This document shows positions 1,842 through 8,383 of a DNA stretch of 64,000 nt, piece after piece. The position numbers and the translations under genes are program-made. Position 1 is the first letter of the stretch, and each line of letters begins with the position of its first letter. The notes beneath the pieces were generated by a model. That model worked only from the letters and a program-made list of their open reading frames with translations. It was not told where the DNA came from and searched no databases. This DNA comes from Kiritimatiellota bacterium (lineage in GTDB: Bacteria > Verrucomicrobiota > Lentisphaeria > Oligosphaerales > JAADHN01): assembly GCA_013151865.1 (NCBI GenBank), contig JAADHN010000087.1, positions 1-64,000 of the forward strand, given 5' to 3'.

Positions 1842-3329
1842 CTATTTCAGACCGAGGGTCAGCGCCGCCAGGGAAAGCGGCGGCAGCTCGAATTGTGCGT
1901 GGCCGTTTATAAGCCGGACCTCGCGGAAGTCGACCGGTTTCACCTCATTGGGGGTGTCGAACGTATTGGCGGCTTTCGGGTCCGCATGGACAAGGAGTTC
2001 GCCTCGTTCGACCGCCGCGATTTCGGCGTCTGCCAGGTCGACCGCGATTTCGGCCGCAGTGTCCAGGCTGCGGTTCGTGGCGAACAGATGCAGCCGTTCC
2101 GGCGCCAGCACGGCGCTGGCGTCAACGCAGGCGACCGGTCCCGAGGAACGGCTTTCGTACTGCGGCCCCTCGACGACGGGTTTGAGGGCGACGCCGTCGC
2201 GGCGGGTGGCAAACATCTTGAAAGGGTGGAAGATCGATTGTACGAGCAGGTCGTCTCCGCGGGTCAGGACCGGGGCGATGACGTTCACGACCTGGGCAAG
2301 GTTGGCGATGCGGAGCACGTCGGCATGGCGGAGGAAGCTGTGAAGAAAGCCCGCGACCGCCAGGGCGTCCTCGAAATTGTAGACTTCTTCGAGCAGATGA
2401 GGGGCGGCTTCACCGTGGCCGTTGCTTTCATGGTTCTTATACCACACATTCCACTCGTCGAAGCAGAGCCATGGGCGTTTCCGGCTGCGGCGGAGGGCCT
2501 GGACGAAACGACAGGCGGCGTCCATTTCCTCGATCTGCCGGTCCACTGAAGCACCGACAGCCAAGTATTCGGCCGTATCGGTTCCTGGGTTTCCCACGTA
2601 CCGATGAAGACTGATGTAATCGGCGAGGTCGCCGAGGGATTCGAGTACGATCCTGTCCCATTCCATGTACGTGGGCAGGCTGGTTCCGCAGGAGCCGCAG
2701 ACCACCAGTTCGATTTCCGGGGAAACCGCCTTCATCATCTGAGCGGCTTGCCAAGCTCGAAGCGCGTATTCTTCAGCCGGGACGTGTCCGAGCTGCCATT
2801 GTCCGTCCATTTCATTTCCCAGGCACCAGAGCCGGACGTGGAAAGGCTCGGAATGGCCGTTGGCCGCACGCCGGTCGGCATAGTGCGTTCCCGGCGGACG
2901 ATTGCAGTACTCGACCCAGTTTCGGGCTTCCTCTGGTGTGCCGACGCCCAGATTCACGGTGATCATCGGGTCCCAATTCATTTTCCGGCAGAGCGTGATG
3001 TATTCATCTGTCCCGAAGGTGTTCGGCTCGATGCTCTGCCAGGCAAGTTCCAGCACTGTGGGGCGTTGGTCCTTCGGGCCCACGCCGTCGAGCCAGTGAT
3101 ATCCGGAAGCGAAGTTTCCCCCGGGATAGCGCATGGTCGTCATGCGGAGTTCGCGGAGCACTTCCAGGACGTCGGTGCGGAATCCCTGTTCGTCGGCATG
3201 ACGGCTGTCGGGGTCGTACACGCCTTGATAGACGGCTCGGCCGAGGTGTTCGAGAAAGCCCCCGAAGATGCGGGGGTCCACCTTGCCCAGAGCGAATGCG
3301 GGGTGAAGTCGGATTTGGGTGGGCTTCAT
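1842..3329 (-). CDS. Alpha-L-arabinofuranosidase, GH51
   Basis: Removes terminal arabinofuranose from arabinan or arabinoxylan. The 495-residue protein has the family N-terminus (IFGGFLEHLGRAVYQGVYDP) and the conserved MRYPGGNFASGYHW stretch near residue 70. The acid/base Glu173 lies in LWCLGNEMDG and the nucleophile Glu292 in FDEWNVWY. After the TIM barrel comes the usual C-terminal beta-sandwich. An open frame extends 16 codons further upstream, but the ATG at 3329 has GGAGAG eight bases before it and matches the family start. There is no signal peptide, as in most bacterial GH51 enzymes, so it probably acts on imported oligosaccharides. It shares strand with the downstream sulfatase but is separated from it by 458 bases, so it is likely a separate transcript. 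Confidence 0.95.
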   Translation of the reverse strand: MKPTQIRLHPAFALGKVDPRIFGGFLEHLGRAVYQGVYDPDSRHADEQGFRTDVLEVLRELRMTTMRYPGGNFASGYHWLDGVGPKDQRPTVLELAWQSIEPNTFGTDEYITLCRKMNWDPMITVNLGVGTPEEARNWVEYCNRPPGTHYADRRAANGHSEPFHVRLWCLGNEMDGQWQLGHVPAEEYALRAWQAAQMMKAVSPEIELVVCGSCGTSLPTYMEWDRIVLESLGDLADYISLHRYVGNPGTDTAEYLAVGASVDRQIEEMDAACRFVQALRRSRKRPWLCFDEWNVWYKNHESNGHGEAAPHLLEEVYNFEDALAVAGFLHSFLRHADVLRIANLAQVVNVIAPVLTRGDDLLVQSIFHPFKMFATRRDGVALKPVVEGPQYESRSSGPVACVDASAVLAPERLHLFATNRSLDTAAEIAVDLADAEIAAVERGELLVHADPKAANTFDTPNEVKPVDFREVRLINGHAQFELPPLSLAALTLGLK

Positions 3330-3666
3330 TGTGATGACTCTCCATTGGGGGGCTGACCGACGAGTTTTCGGGTGCATCCATGTGCGCTACAAGCGCCGCG
3401 ACGGCCGTGGTCCGGCGGAGCACGGTGTCTTCTGTGCTCGTTTTTCGTGTGTTGCGAAGTCCGCGGCGCGGACGAAGTGCGTTTGCCATGATGACCTCAT
3501 TGACCTCGTCGCGAGATGGCATAACTTACACGGTTTCAGGTCATTGTGGCGAGCGTTGGGCCGGGCTGTGTTGAAGCGCCGCCTCGGCCGGCAGGCGGCG
3601 GCAATGTTCCGAAGACGGTTGAGACACATCGTCGCATTAGATGGCTCACGCCTTATTCAGTGCAAT
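3330..3666. other. Intergenic region, nothing recognised
   Basis: This 337-base gap lies between the ATP-cone gene stop and the GH51 start, both on the minus strand. The short reading frames in it have no ribosome sites or recognisable composition. It should carry the GH51 promoter, but I could not pick out a convincing pair of hexamers. Confidence 0.5.
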
Positions 3667-4644
3667 TCACGGGCGAAAGACGACCGCGGGCGACGGGGTG
3701 ATTCCTTTGAGTGCAAATCGCCCGACCAAGTCCCGGATTTCCGCTGCGGTTCGGACCCGGCCGACCTTGGAGAGCGCGGTGAATCGTTTCTGGAGCAAGA
3801 CCTCCAGGCGTCGCACTTCAAGAGCGGCAGGCAAAGAGAGACCCGTGGTGTCCGCTTCGGCGATACACGTTTGGATTCGGCGAGCGACGAGAGTTGCCGC
3901 CCGGCAACAATCCACCAACAGAGGATAGAAGGCGAGTTGGGTCAAGGGGTCGGTTTGGACGCGTTTGCCCAGGCGTTCAAGATCCAATCGCAGGCGGGGC
4001 GCCGGCAATAAGCGTGAGACCGGTTTGATCTCCAGGGCGCCGCAATGTACGAACGGCGCGGTCCCGGTCGGGAATTCGTCCTGCCATCGGTCGGGTCGGA
4101 GGAGCCAGGGGGCGTCTTCTTCCGAGGGAGGCGGACCCGGGGGGCCGGCAGACGATGGTGCGACGTGGCGGGCGACCTGCACGATGAGACTGTCGGCGAT
4201 TGCGTCAATCCCGAGGCGTTCGAGTCGTGCGGCGGTGAGTTCGGCCAACCGCTGCAATGCCAAAGGATGAAGAGGCAGGTTTCGCCGTAACACCTGCTCG
4301 ATCCGTGTGCGGTCCCAAGCTCCTCGGGGGGAATCGCCGTCTAGAAACGGTGTCAGACCCGAATTCTGCACAAACCCCGCGGCGACTTCGGGATAGCCCG
4401 CGTCCACCAGAACTTGGGCGACCATGCGATCGAGTCCGGTGGTAGACGGCAGAGCGTCGCCGTTTTGCTGAAGATACTGGAGATAGTCTTCGATGAATGC
4501 CGCGATATGTCCGGCGACCCACGGATCCCGCATTCCGGCGTCCCGGCAACAGCGGGCGATTCTGTCGCGCAGGTCGCGGGCATGGAAAGTGCGGAGTCCG
4601 TCTCCATCCCGAAGAAGCAGATTACCTGCGGCCGGCTTGATCAT
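3667..4644 (-). CDS. Divergent ATP-cone protein coupled to NrdR
   Basis: I do not recognise the whole protein (325 residues). Residues 8-93 read as a diverged ATP-cone: LLRDGDGLRTF followed by ARDLRDRI, a helical stretch, then VAQVLVDAGYPEVA. These match the order and spacing of the cone in NrdR and ribonucleotide reductases, including the RDG turn and the closing GY-EVA helix. The remaining 230 residues are helical, arginine-rich, with a proline/glycine linker near residue 165, and match nothing I know. Its ATG overlaps the nrdR stop (ATGA), so the two are almost certainly translated together. An ATP-sensing partner or modulator of NrdR is a reasonable inference; a role apart from dNTP control is possible. 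Confidence 0.7.
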   Translation of the reverse strand: MIKPAAGNLLLRDGDGLRTFHARDLRDRIARCCRDAGMRDPWVAGHIAAFIEDYLQYLQQNGDALPSTTGLDRMVAQVLVDAGYPEVAAGFVQNSGLTPFLDGDSPRGAWDRTRIEQVLRRNLPLHPLALQRLAELTAARLERLGIDAIADSLIVQVARHVAPSSAGPPGPPPSEEDAPWLLRPDRWQDEFPTGTAPFVHCGALEIKPVSRLLPAPRLRLDLERLGKRVQTDPLTQLAFYPLLVDCCRAATLVARRIQTCIAEADTTGLSLPAALEVRRLEVLLQKRFTALSKVGRVRTAAEIRDLVGRFALKGITPSPAVVFRP

Positions 4645-5114
4645 TCGGCTGTTGCTTCATCCTGTTGGTCGGTAAGTTTGCGGACTGTATGCACGAAATC
4701 GTCCACGTCTTGGAAATGACGGTAGACCGAAGCAAAGCGGACGTAGGCCACCTCGTCCAGGTCTTTGAGTTCGTTCATAATCATTTCCCCGAGATCCTGA
4801 CTGGGGATTTCGCGGTCCGGGCGTTGTTCGATGTACGCGGCGACTTTTCGGATAAGGCGGTCGATTTCGTCGGTGCTGATCGGGCGTTTTCCGCAGGCCC
4901 GCCGGATACCGGTCCGCAGTTTTTCGGGGTCGAAGTCTTCGCGGCGTCCATCGCGTTTCACGATCTGCTTTTCGGTGCGCACGATGACTTCGTAAGTGGT
5001 GAAGCGGTGTCCGCATCCCAGGCATTCCCGGCGGCGGCGGATCGATTCCCCGCCCCGACAGACGCGGGTGTCGATGACCCGGTCTTCGACGTGGCGGCAC
5101 TGGGGACAACGCAT
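4641..5114 (-). CDS. nrdR: Transcriptional repressor NrdR
   Basis: Represses ribonucleotide reductase genes when dATP/ATP occupy its cone domain. The 157-residue protein has a zinc ribbon (Cys3, Cys6, Cys31, Cys34) followed by an ATP-cone at about residues 49-139 starting at VKRDGRREDFDPEKL. Length matches the family (about 150). The open frame runs 58 codons further upstream, but the ATG at 5114 gives the canonical MRCPQC start and has AGGGAG at good spacing. It follows the ymdB-like gene by 170 bases and overlaps the next gene by four bases. No ribonucleotide reductase gene is in the window, so the regulon lies elsewhere. Confidence 0.96.
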   Translation of the reverse strand: MRCPQCRHVEDRVIDTRVCRGGESIRRRRECLGCGHRFTTYEVIVRTEKQIVKRDGRREDFDPEKLRTGIRRACGKRPISTDEIDRLIRKVAAYIEQRPDREIPSQDLGEMIMNELKDLDEVAYVRFASVYRHFQDVDDFVHTVRKLTDQQDEATAE

Positions 5115-5284: not shown

Positions 5285-6091
5285 TCAATCAGTTGCTTGG
5301 TTTGACCCTTCCAGGTCGCGATGCACGGGATGAATACCGTATGCCCGACCGTCGGTCGGGTTAATGGAAACAACGGCGCCGCAAAGGCGGATATTGTCTT
5401 CGATCACTTTGAAGCGTGCGGGCATTCCGGTCGAGAATCGCCGCAGAACGGGCGGAATGGCTCGGCCGAGGATCGATTCGCGGCTGCCCACCATTCCTAC
5501 GTCACACTGAAAAGCGGTGCCGCCGGAGAAGACCTGCGCGTCGGCGGTGGGTACGTGTGTATGCGTTCCCAAGACGGCGGACACTCGACCGTCGAGGTAG
5601 CGTCCCATGGCGATTTTTTCGCTGGTGGCCTCTGCATGGAAGTCCACGATCACGACCGGGGTCCGGGCCTTGATTTCCTCGATCAGGCGGTCGGCGGCCT
5701 GGAAGGGACAGTCTGCATTGGCGTGCATGAAGGTACGTCCGAGCAGGCAGAGGACGCCGACCGGCACGGCGGCGGCGGATTGAAAGACGCCCCAGCCGCG
5801 TCCCGGTTGAGCGGAGCAGACGTTGGCCGGACGAAGCACGTTGGGAAACAGCAGGATGTCCTGCTCGAATTCGCCCTGGTCCCACATGTGGTCGCCGCCG
5901 GTGAACACGTCCACCTGCGCGTCCCTGAGTCCGGCGATGCAGCGGCGGGTCATCCCCCCTCCGCCGGCCATGTTTTCCCCGTTGGCGATGCAGAACGAGC
6001 AGGCGAAGTCGCGTCGGAGCGCAGGGACAAGCTCACGGACGGCGCGGCGCCCGCCTTTGCCCACCATGTCGCCGACGAAGAGGATGTTCAT
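5285..6091 (-). CDS. YmdB-family metallophosphoesterase
   Basis: The family (TIGR00282) comprises dimetal phosphodiesterases, shown in Bacillus to hydrolyse 2',3'-cyclic nucleotides and to affect RNA turnover and biofilm decisions. The 268-residue protein begins MNILFVGDMVGKGG, the family hallmark with the first metal-binding Asp. It continues with ANGENMAGGGG, TGGDHMWDQ, VDFHAEATSEK and GTHTHVPTAD, which supply the remaining Asn, His and Glu ligands. The start at 6091 is preceded by AAGGAAAG; the longer open frame upstream has no family match. It is the first gene of a minus-strand cluster with nrdR and the ATP-cone gene. Confidence 0.93.
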   Translation of the reverse strand: MNILFVGDMVGKGGRRAVRELVPALRRDFACSFCIANGENMAGGGGMTRRCIAGLRDAQVDVFTGGDHMWDQGEFEQDILLFPNVLRPANVCSAQPGRGWGVFQSAAAVPVGVLCLLGRTFMHANADCPFQAADRLIEEIKARTPVVIVDFHAEATSEKIAMGRYLDGRVSAVLGTHTHVPTADAQVFSGGTAFQCDVGMVGSRESILGRAIPPVLRRFSTGMPARFKVIEDNIRLCGAVVSINPTDGRAYGIHPVHRDLEGSNQATD

Positions 6092-7088: not shown

Positions 7089-7291
7089 GTCCGTGCCCCG
7101 TAACGAATCGATGATGTGCAGTGGACTCTTGCCGACCTCGCGACGCGGAACGGGGCGACGTCCAAAAGGGTCGTTTCGGAGGTCCTTCGGACGGGAGCGA
7201 TTGCGGATTGTCGTGAACCAAAGTGGATCACAGGCGAACTCGCAGGTGCTGCGAGACCGCCCGAACGAATTCAGCGATGCACGGTGGCACA

Positions 7292-8383
7292 ATGAATACG
7301 CTTCTGGAAATCCCGGCGACCCCCGATGCTGGGGAACTCCGTGAATGGATCACGGCCCGGAAACCGGCGCACCGGCTGTTTGCCGTCGAATTGTTTCAGG
7401 ATTACCCGGTGCAGGAAGCGGTCGCGGCGCGGTACGGACTGTGGGAGGGTTTGGACTTGGGAGACCCGGTGGATGCACTGAGGGCCCAGGTGCGCCTGCA
7501 GGGGTTTCTTGGATACGACATGATTCGCATCCAGCCCCGGGTGGCGATGAGTTTCTTTCGGAATACAACCGAGGACCCGGTCGGTCCGGGCACGACGGAA
7601 GTCGCGCCTCGCATTCGCAGTTGGCAGGACGAGCACAAGGGGCCGATCGATTCGTGGGAAACGTTCGAGAGTTTTCCGTGGCCCAAGATCGAGGACTTCG
7701 ACTTTTCGGGCTTTGAGTGGGCGGAGCGGGAGTTGCCCGAACAGATGGGGGTCTACACGCTCACCGCACACATCCTGGAACACGCGACGTGGTTGATGGG
7801 GTACGAGACGCTCTGCTACATGCTATACGATGATCCGGATTTGGTGGAAGCGGTGTTCAATCGCGTAGGTGAATTGTCCGACGCGTACAGTCGAGCGGCA
7901 TGTGATTTCGACTGTCTCACCGTTCTCTGGGGCAGTGACGACATGGGTTTCAAGGGCGGGACCATGATTTCCGCCGCCGCCCTGCGACGGTTCGTCTTGC
8001 CCTGGCACGCCTCGTCGGCGCGGATCGCCCACGAGCATGGCAAGATGTATTGGCTGCACGCCTGCGGCAATCTCGAGGAAATCATGGCGGACATCATCGA
8101 TACGGTTGGTGTGGACGCCAAACATTCGTTCGAGGACGTCATCTGTCCGGTCGAGGAAGTCTCCCGCCGGTACGGCGACCGCACCGGCGTACTCGGGGGC
8201 GTGGATGTGGATTTTCTCTGTCGTGCGGACGAAGCGGCGATTCGGCGTCGGGTTCGGGGCATTCTGGACGAGTGCCTTCCCCGGGGCGGCTACTGCCTCG
8301 GGACAGGGAACTCCGTGACCAACTATATCCCGTTGGAAAATTACCTGATCATGTTGGACGAAGGGCGACGTTATTTTGCATGA
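7292..8383 (+). CDS. URO-D-family protein, probable zinc methyltransferase
   Basis: The 363-residue protein belongs to the uroporphyrinogen decarboxylase superfamily. It resembles the cobamide methyltransferase branch (MtaA/CmuA type) more than HemE. It has His256-x-Cys258 in WLHACGN and Cys335 in GGYCLGTGN, the His-Cys-Cys zinc site used by that branch to activate a thiol. The HemE N-terminal substrate-binding motifs are missing. Members are abundant in glycan-degrading PVC bacteria with undefined substrates. The start at 7292 has GGTGG just upstream; ATG 7277 in the same frame is an alternative. No corrinoid protein is adjacent. Its stop lies inside the next gene, so the two overlap. Confidence 0.8.
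   Translation: MNTLLEIPATPDAGELREWITARKPAHRLFAVELFQDYPVQEAVAARYGLWEGLDLGDPVDALRAQVRLQGFLGYDMIRIQPRVAMSFFRNTTEDPVGPGTTEVAPRIRSWQDEHKGPIDSWETFESFPWPKIEDFDFSGFEWAERELPEQMGVYTLTAHILEHATWLMGYETLCYMLYDDPDLVEAVFNRVGELSDAYSRAACDFDCLTVLWGSDDMGFKGGTMISAAALRRFVLPWHASSARIAHEHGKMYWLHACGNLEEIMADIIDTVGVDAKHSFEDVICPVEEVSRRYGDRTGVLGGVDVDFLCRADEAAIRRRVRGILDECLPRGGYCLGTGNSVTNYIPLENYLIMLDEGRRYFA

Follow-up and report, generated by a model that had tools for sequence, protein, structure and literature searches.

The gene directly behind nrdR in the window (the whole stretch of DNA that was analysed, 64,000 nucleotides) encodes a protein composed of a clear ATP-cone at the N-terminus, then a cone-like segment, and finally an alpha/beta domain at the C-terminus. 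Judged from its sequence, this protein is neither an NrdR, nor a reductase, nor a canonical nucleotide sensor. It belongs to a cone family that appears to be common to Verrucomicrobiota (in the GTDB sense) and is usually translated together with NrdR. The initial annotation had described a 325-residue open reading frame that follows nrdR with an ATGA overlap, and this arrangement is confirmed by the two reading frames at 3667-4644 and 4641-5114, both on the minus strand. The relevant features are:

3667..4644, minus strand: gene of the 325-aa two-cone protein (nrdR-linked cone protein), ATG start, from the ORF call and orthologues
4641..5114, minus strand: nrdR, 157 aa, a clear equivalog (TIGR00244, 191 bits against a cut-off of 125) with nucleotide ligands K53, R54, E59 and K65 intact
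4641..4644, minus strand: ATGA stop/start overlap of nrdR and the cone gene, 4 nt, with the cone ATG over the nrdR TGA
5285..6091, minus strand: TIGR00282-family metallophosphoesterase, upstream neighbour of nrdR (E = 1.7e-64; 217.8 bits, under the cut-off of 254)
4360..4644, minus strand: cone 1, residues 1-95, from the Pfam ATP-cone match, hhalign, AF2 with Foldseek, and ligand counts
4144..4350, minus strand: cone 2-like segment, residues 99-167, from hhalign and hmmsearch against NrdD
3688..4107, minus strand: C-terminal alpha/beta domain, residues ~180-319, from AF2

The window also carries genes for an arabinosylfuranosidase-like enzyme (1842-3377) and an MtaA/CmuA-like methyltransferase (7223-8383), neither of which bears any relation to the cone finding.

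The N-terminus of the protein is a divergent ATP-cone. It matches the Pfam ATP-cone family (PF03477) over residues 19-91 with an E-value of 3.9e-5 and 24.6 bits, 1.2 bits short of the curated cut-off of 25.8. The same Pfam family is matched individually by 21 of 28 orthologues, the best at 1.3e-10, so the match in the window protein is not due to chance. Aligned to NrdR with hhalign, residues 1-98 cover nearly the whole NrdR cone (probability 78, E = 1.7e-5 for one comparison). A profile built from the cone-protein family alone recovers reductase cones as well as those of NrdR, which provides independent support for homology. The AF2 model shows cone 1 as a beta-hairpin (8-13, 16-21) followed by four helices (22-35, 41-61, 68-81, 85-94); with a mean pLDDT of 73 and a pTM of 0.49 for the protein as a whole, the packing of the domains is uncertain. 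In a Foldseek search of the PDB the nine top rows consist entirely of cone proteins, either reductases or NrdR, the top matches being double-cone NrdA, NrdB with a cone, NrdD and NrdR; the best E-value is 8.8e-3 and none falls below 0.001. The NrdR model 9a6n is matched with probability 1.00 and an rmsd of 4.0, and a fold search of a viral structure library gives the same picture. The initial annotation had read the first ~90 residues as an ATP-cone and had proposed a profile check of the N-terminus against that family; the check gave a cone match, and the reading is borne out by profile, profile-profile and fold comparison alike. Its 'RDG turn' (residues 12-14) is not a motif of the family, the conserved hairpin glycine being G16 (78 of 80 members). 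A weak Pfam match to DinB_2 (0.0029), found for the window protein alone and absent from the other members of the 28, was dropped, and a profile match of residues 66-155 to GID8, a LisH/CTLH protein (E = 0.012), was judged to be chance helical similarity.

ATP-cones are known dATP sensors in reductases and in NrdR. The positions that serve this purpose in NrdR are well defined: binding requires V48, K50, E56 and K62 of the Streptomyces coelicolor protein (V51, K53, E59 and K65 in Escherichia coli), and direct contacts to the nucleotides come from K50, R51, E56 and K62 in S. coelicolor numbering (PMC9110341, PMC12176259). All local NrdR proteins have K53, E59 and K65, and 14 of 17 have R54. The cone family keeps only the hydrophobic V51. 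A lysine or arginine stands at K53 in 5 of 80 members, at R54 in 2 of 76 and at K65 in 10 of 80, and a glutamate at E59 in 12 of 80, counts that hinge on how a short hairpin is aligned and represent a sequence comparison rather than a binding test. Structural positions are retained: besides G16, L79 is found in 79 of 80 members, G83 in all 80 and F/Y91 in 79 of 80. This loss of ligand residues while structural residues are kept makes canonical ATP/dATP sensing by cone 1 unlikely. The earlier proposal of a 'nucleotide-dependent' partner is thus not upheld, since the residues by which NrdR contacts ATP and dATP have been lost across the family of 80.

The second portion of the protein is closest to the second cone of the class III reductase NrdD of the same organism. 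With hhalign, residues 99-167 align to the cone 2 region of NrdD (probability 94, E = 2.2e-7), and an hmmsearch of a small database with this segment matches all 21 local NrdD proteins (E = 1.4e-4 to 3.7e-11). The segment carries the pattern WDxxRLxxxL...LGxxxxxDxLIxxLAxH. It is termed cone-like because no clear beta-hairpin is predicted within it. Five short-form members of the class (L046, L047 and L059-L061) do not have the segment, which marks it as a detachable module. It also matches a two-cone NrdD-like protein encoded directly behind nrdR in one metagenome-assembled genome (MAG), from rumen (L140:3457-5280). That protein has 607 residues, begins 3 bp behind nrdR and, with a weak NRDD match of 22 bits, looks like a pseudo-reductase. 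The C-terminal domain (residues ~180-320) is predicted to follow the order strand-helix-helix-strand-helix-helix-strand, with AF2 pLDDT values mostly of 75-89. The C-terminal 227 residues match nothing in Pfam, including the reductase barrels PF02867 and PF13597, and a profile of the domain matches neither the NrdD nor the NrdR profiles. A possible barrel start at residues ~195-240 ('GALEIKPVS' against 'GAIHLHDLG' of NrdD) was set aside when profiles of the domain failed to match the 21 NrdD proteins and L140. The statement that the remaining 230 residues match nothing therefore holds for ~180-320, where no relative was found, and fails for 99-167. The protein as a whole has no TIGR00244 match and no CxxC pairs, and hence no NrdR-type N-terminal zinc ribbon; profile searches of its full length find no PF02867 or PF13597 barrel. 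The description of a cone protein without zinc ribbon or reductase barrel was correct.

Orthologues were found by sequence search in 44 of 60 relatives. A family profile (A1) built from 28 of these detects a member in 80 of the 82 genomes sampled from the class; beyond the class its matches are almost only reductase cones. The class in which the cone protein is nearly universal is apparently Lentisphaeria, as judged from sequence matches. A direct search of a public genome collection with the window protein found nothing; the family alignment is too divergent for such a search, and NrdR served as bait instead. The best matches of the window NrdR (55-58% identity) are in MAGs labelled Lentisphaeria, Lentisphaerae or Verrucomicrobia. 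Shorter relatives stand behind nrdR in two other classes, with ~185 aa in Verrucomicrobiae and 200-248 aa in Kiritimatiellae. Cone 1 is common to the window family and the Verrucomicrobiae type (hhalign, E = 1.4e-9), and the proteins L094 and G175 act as links, matching the profiles of both types at about 1e-11 to 1e-29. Between the Kiritimatiellae and Verrucomicrobiae types the match has an E-value of 2.7e-6, or 1.5e-7 when the link proteins are included. The C-terminal domains of the window and Verrucomicrobiae types show a weak sequence match (E about 0.003) and the same order of predicted elements; a fold search with a model of the Verrucomicrobiae type gave only insignificant AAA+ matches. 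The loss of the nucleotide ligands and the low identity between families (only 20-34%) would fit a decaying cone fragment carried along in the operon with no regulatory role. However, such a passenger is very improbable given its retention in 80 of 82 genomes with intact reading frames, the strong conservation of G83, L79 and G16, and its survival of relocation or of the loss of nrdR. No report of the cone family was found in a search of largely open-access literature, nor any paper joining the ATP-cone with Verrucomicrobia or with an anti-repressor, or NrdR with TIGR00282; PMC4989314, which concerns Lentisphaerae and NrdR, was not seen to mention the neighbouring gene.

The genomic context of the cone gene is largely conserved. 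Of 45 matches from a survey of 60 relatives, 39 share a contig with nrdR and lie downstream of it in the same orientation. Class-wide, among the 65 copies with a listed nrdR position, 37 lie directly downstream of nrdR, 6 are on its strand no more than 3 kb away and none lies on the opposite strand; the remaining 22 are on a contig other than that of nrdR, 17 of these from one family. Among 23 gene pairs that could be measured, 14 overlap, by 1 to 8 nt. With NrdR as the sole bait, a survey without bias for the neighbouring gene, a short overlapping gene follows nrdR in about half of 80 named loci, and the 4-nt overlap recurs in about 40 of the 80 (Lentisphaeria, Kiritimatiellae and Verrucomicrobiae). 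The TIGR00282 gene is also present upstream in 20 of 26 nrdR-cone loci, so part of the linkage reflects general operon conservation. In the two loci examined, an RNase Y-like gene (judged by eye) lies further upstream. In L195 the cone gene is preceded by a gene for a chloride-channel-like protein of about 600 aa (judged by eye); in L099 such a gene stands between nrdR and a cone gene that is split into two frames, and L200 has a gap of corresponding size before the cone gene. Genus g39 has another arrangement in 7 of 16 genomes (L222, L223, L224, L230, L235, L237 and L240): there the cone gene is directly upstream of dnaN-recF, with dnaA nearby in one, all three genes being identified by eye from sequence. 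The expectation that orthologues always follow nrdR thus stands as conserved adjacency throughout the class and fails as a strict rule, given the 22 copies on other contigs and those before dnaN-recF. This relocation hints at a replication client, and the protein might be an adaptor of, for example, DnaN or RecF, with the nrdR linkage representing co-expression with DNA synthesis. Such a role is improbable, since the arrangement is probably a single relocation inherited within one genus and is absent from the other loci examined.

NrdR is probably in use in the source genome, which encodes a two-cone class III NrdD (L172) and an NrdG-type activase, as well as a class II NrdJ that has no cone. 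Pairs of NrdR boxes with a spacing of 32 bp precede both nrdD (L172 1346/1378, spanning 1346-1393) and nrdJ (L251 1487/1519, spanning 1487-1534), so NrdR control looks intact. No box was found at the nrdR operon itself; matches in the window do not exceed chance. These boxes, the intact NrdR and the overlap or adjacency with nrdR over three classes would be expected of a dedicated partner that makes hetero-cone contacts with NrdR and acts purely as a co-repressor or anti-repressor. However, many other copies are free of nrdR linkage, and four genomes in which nrdR is not detected (G095, G106, G263 and G245) still have the cone protein. For G263 and G245, with completeness of 93 and 87, the absence could be an assembly gap. 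On one contig each of G095 and G106 (L193 and L194), the RNase Y-like, TIGR00282-like and cone genes follow each other, with nrdR missing from its usual slot between the last two. No paired NrdR boxes were found in the reductase stretches scanned in these two genomes, whereas their relative G109 has a pair at nrdD. Together with the unlinked copies, this retention indicates that the cone protein is not solely an NrdR co- or anti-repressor; it may act as either among other roles. The proposal that it exists only to serve NrdR is not supported by these genomes, and an exclusive NrdR partner seems rather doubtful.

The reductases are a possible second point of contact. G106 keeps the cone protein and has a cone-less class II NrdJ, with no detectable NrdR and no intact NrdD (the NRDD match is weak and partial). 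This observation, and the best match of residues 99-167 being to cone 2 of NrdD, would suit a regulator directed at reductases only, supplying or blocking a cone in trans on class II or III enzymes, with the nrdR linkage serving common expression. Without nucleotide ligands, however, such a regulator could not sense dATP itself, and no linkage to nrdD or nrdJ was seen, reductase type having been checked in six genomes only. A role restricted to reductases is unlikely.

The best explanation, which is tentative, is that the protein is a cone subunit insensitive to nucleotides, with NrdR as a binding partner and with a second client that is probably a reductase. NrdR oligomerises through its cones (PMC9110341), and the integrative model of a Soj-NrdR complex (PDB 9a6n) suggests that NrdR can have protein partners. 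Contact of the cone protein with NrdR or a reductase is suggested by gene order and domain type. NrdR and cone-bearing reductases change oligomer through cone-cone contacts, and co-translation together with the cone fold suggests hetero-oligomers with NrdR. A cone unable to bind nucleotide could then cap or bridge NrdR or reductase assemblies and so shift the set point at which NrdR responds to ATP and dATP. A second client is expected because the cone protein outlives NrdR and the only clear reductase of G106 is a cone-less class II enzyme; this client would act in dNTP synthesis and would most likely be the reductase itself. No other cone protein was found in G106, which nevertheless keeps the family, and this argues against cone-cone contact as the sole mechanism. 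The C-terminal domain makes up nearly half of the protein and could also give it a quite different role. More speculatively, and with rather less likelihood, the protein might be a class-wide third component of dNTP control, blind to nucleotides and co-translated with NrdR, that forms a hetero-oligomer with NrdR and the reductase to set the dATP response and still controls the reductase after NrdR is lost. If the preferred reading of a nucleotide-insensitive subunit is true, a core gene of an entire class with the cone fold but not its ligands, located in the nrdR operon and surviving the loss of nrdR, would mean that cones can also be pure assembly modules, and NrdR control may have a protein partner not described in the papers found. 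The cone protein is a concrete candidate for the tuning of dNTP supply in Verrucomicrobiota.

Among known systems, NrdR (TIGR00244) shares the ATP-cone and the operon, and cone 1 aligns over nearly the whole of its cone; the window protein differs in having no zinc ribbon, TIGR00244 match or ATP/dATP ligands, and in adding a cone-like segment and a C-terminal domain. The two-cone NrdD of the source genome (L172) likewise has tandem N-terminal cones, the second of which is the best sequence match, but the window protein contains neither a reductase barrel nor a glycyl-radical domain, and its C-terminal domain is unmatched there. The double-cone class I NrdA of Pseudomonas aeruginosa (PDB 5im3) is the best fold match, over 172 columns; it is a dATP-sensing reductase, whereas the window protein has no barrel or ligands. 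Phage stand-alone ATP-cone proteins (e.g. A0A5B9N963 of an Aeromonas phage, 88 aa) resemble it in having the cone fold with no reductase attached (TM 0.65 by target), but are single small domains with no nrdR linkage as far as seen. The short proteins of Verrucomicrobiae and Kiritimatiellae have only a single cone and a C-terminal domain that aligns only weakly with the one in the window protein, yet they occupy the same slot behind nrdR, and the Verrucomicrobiae type has cone 1 in common with it.
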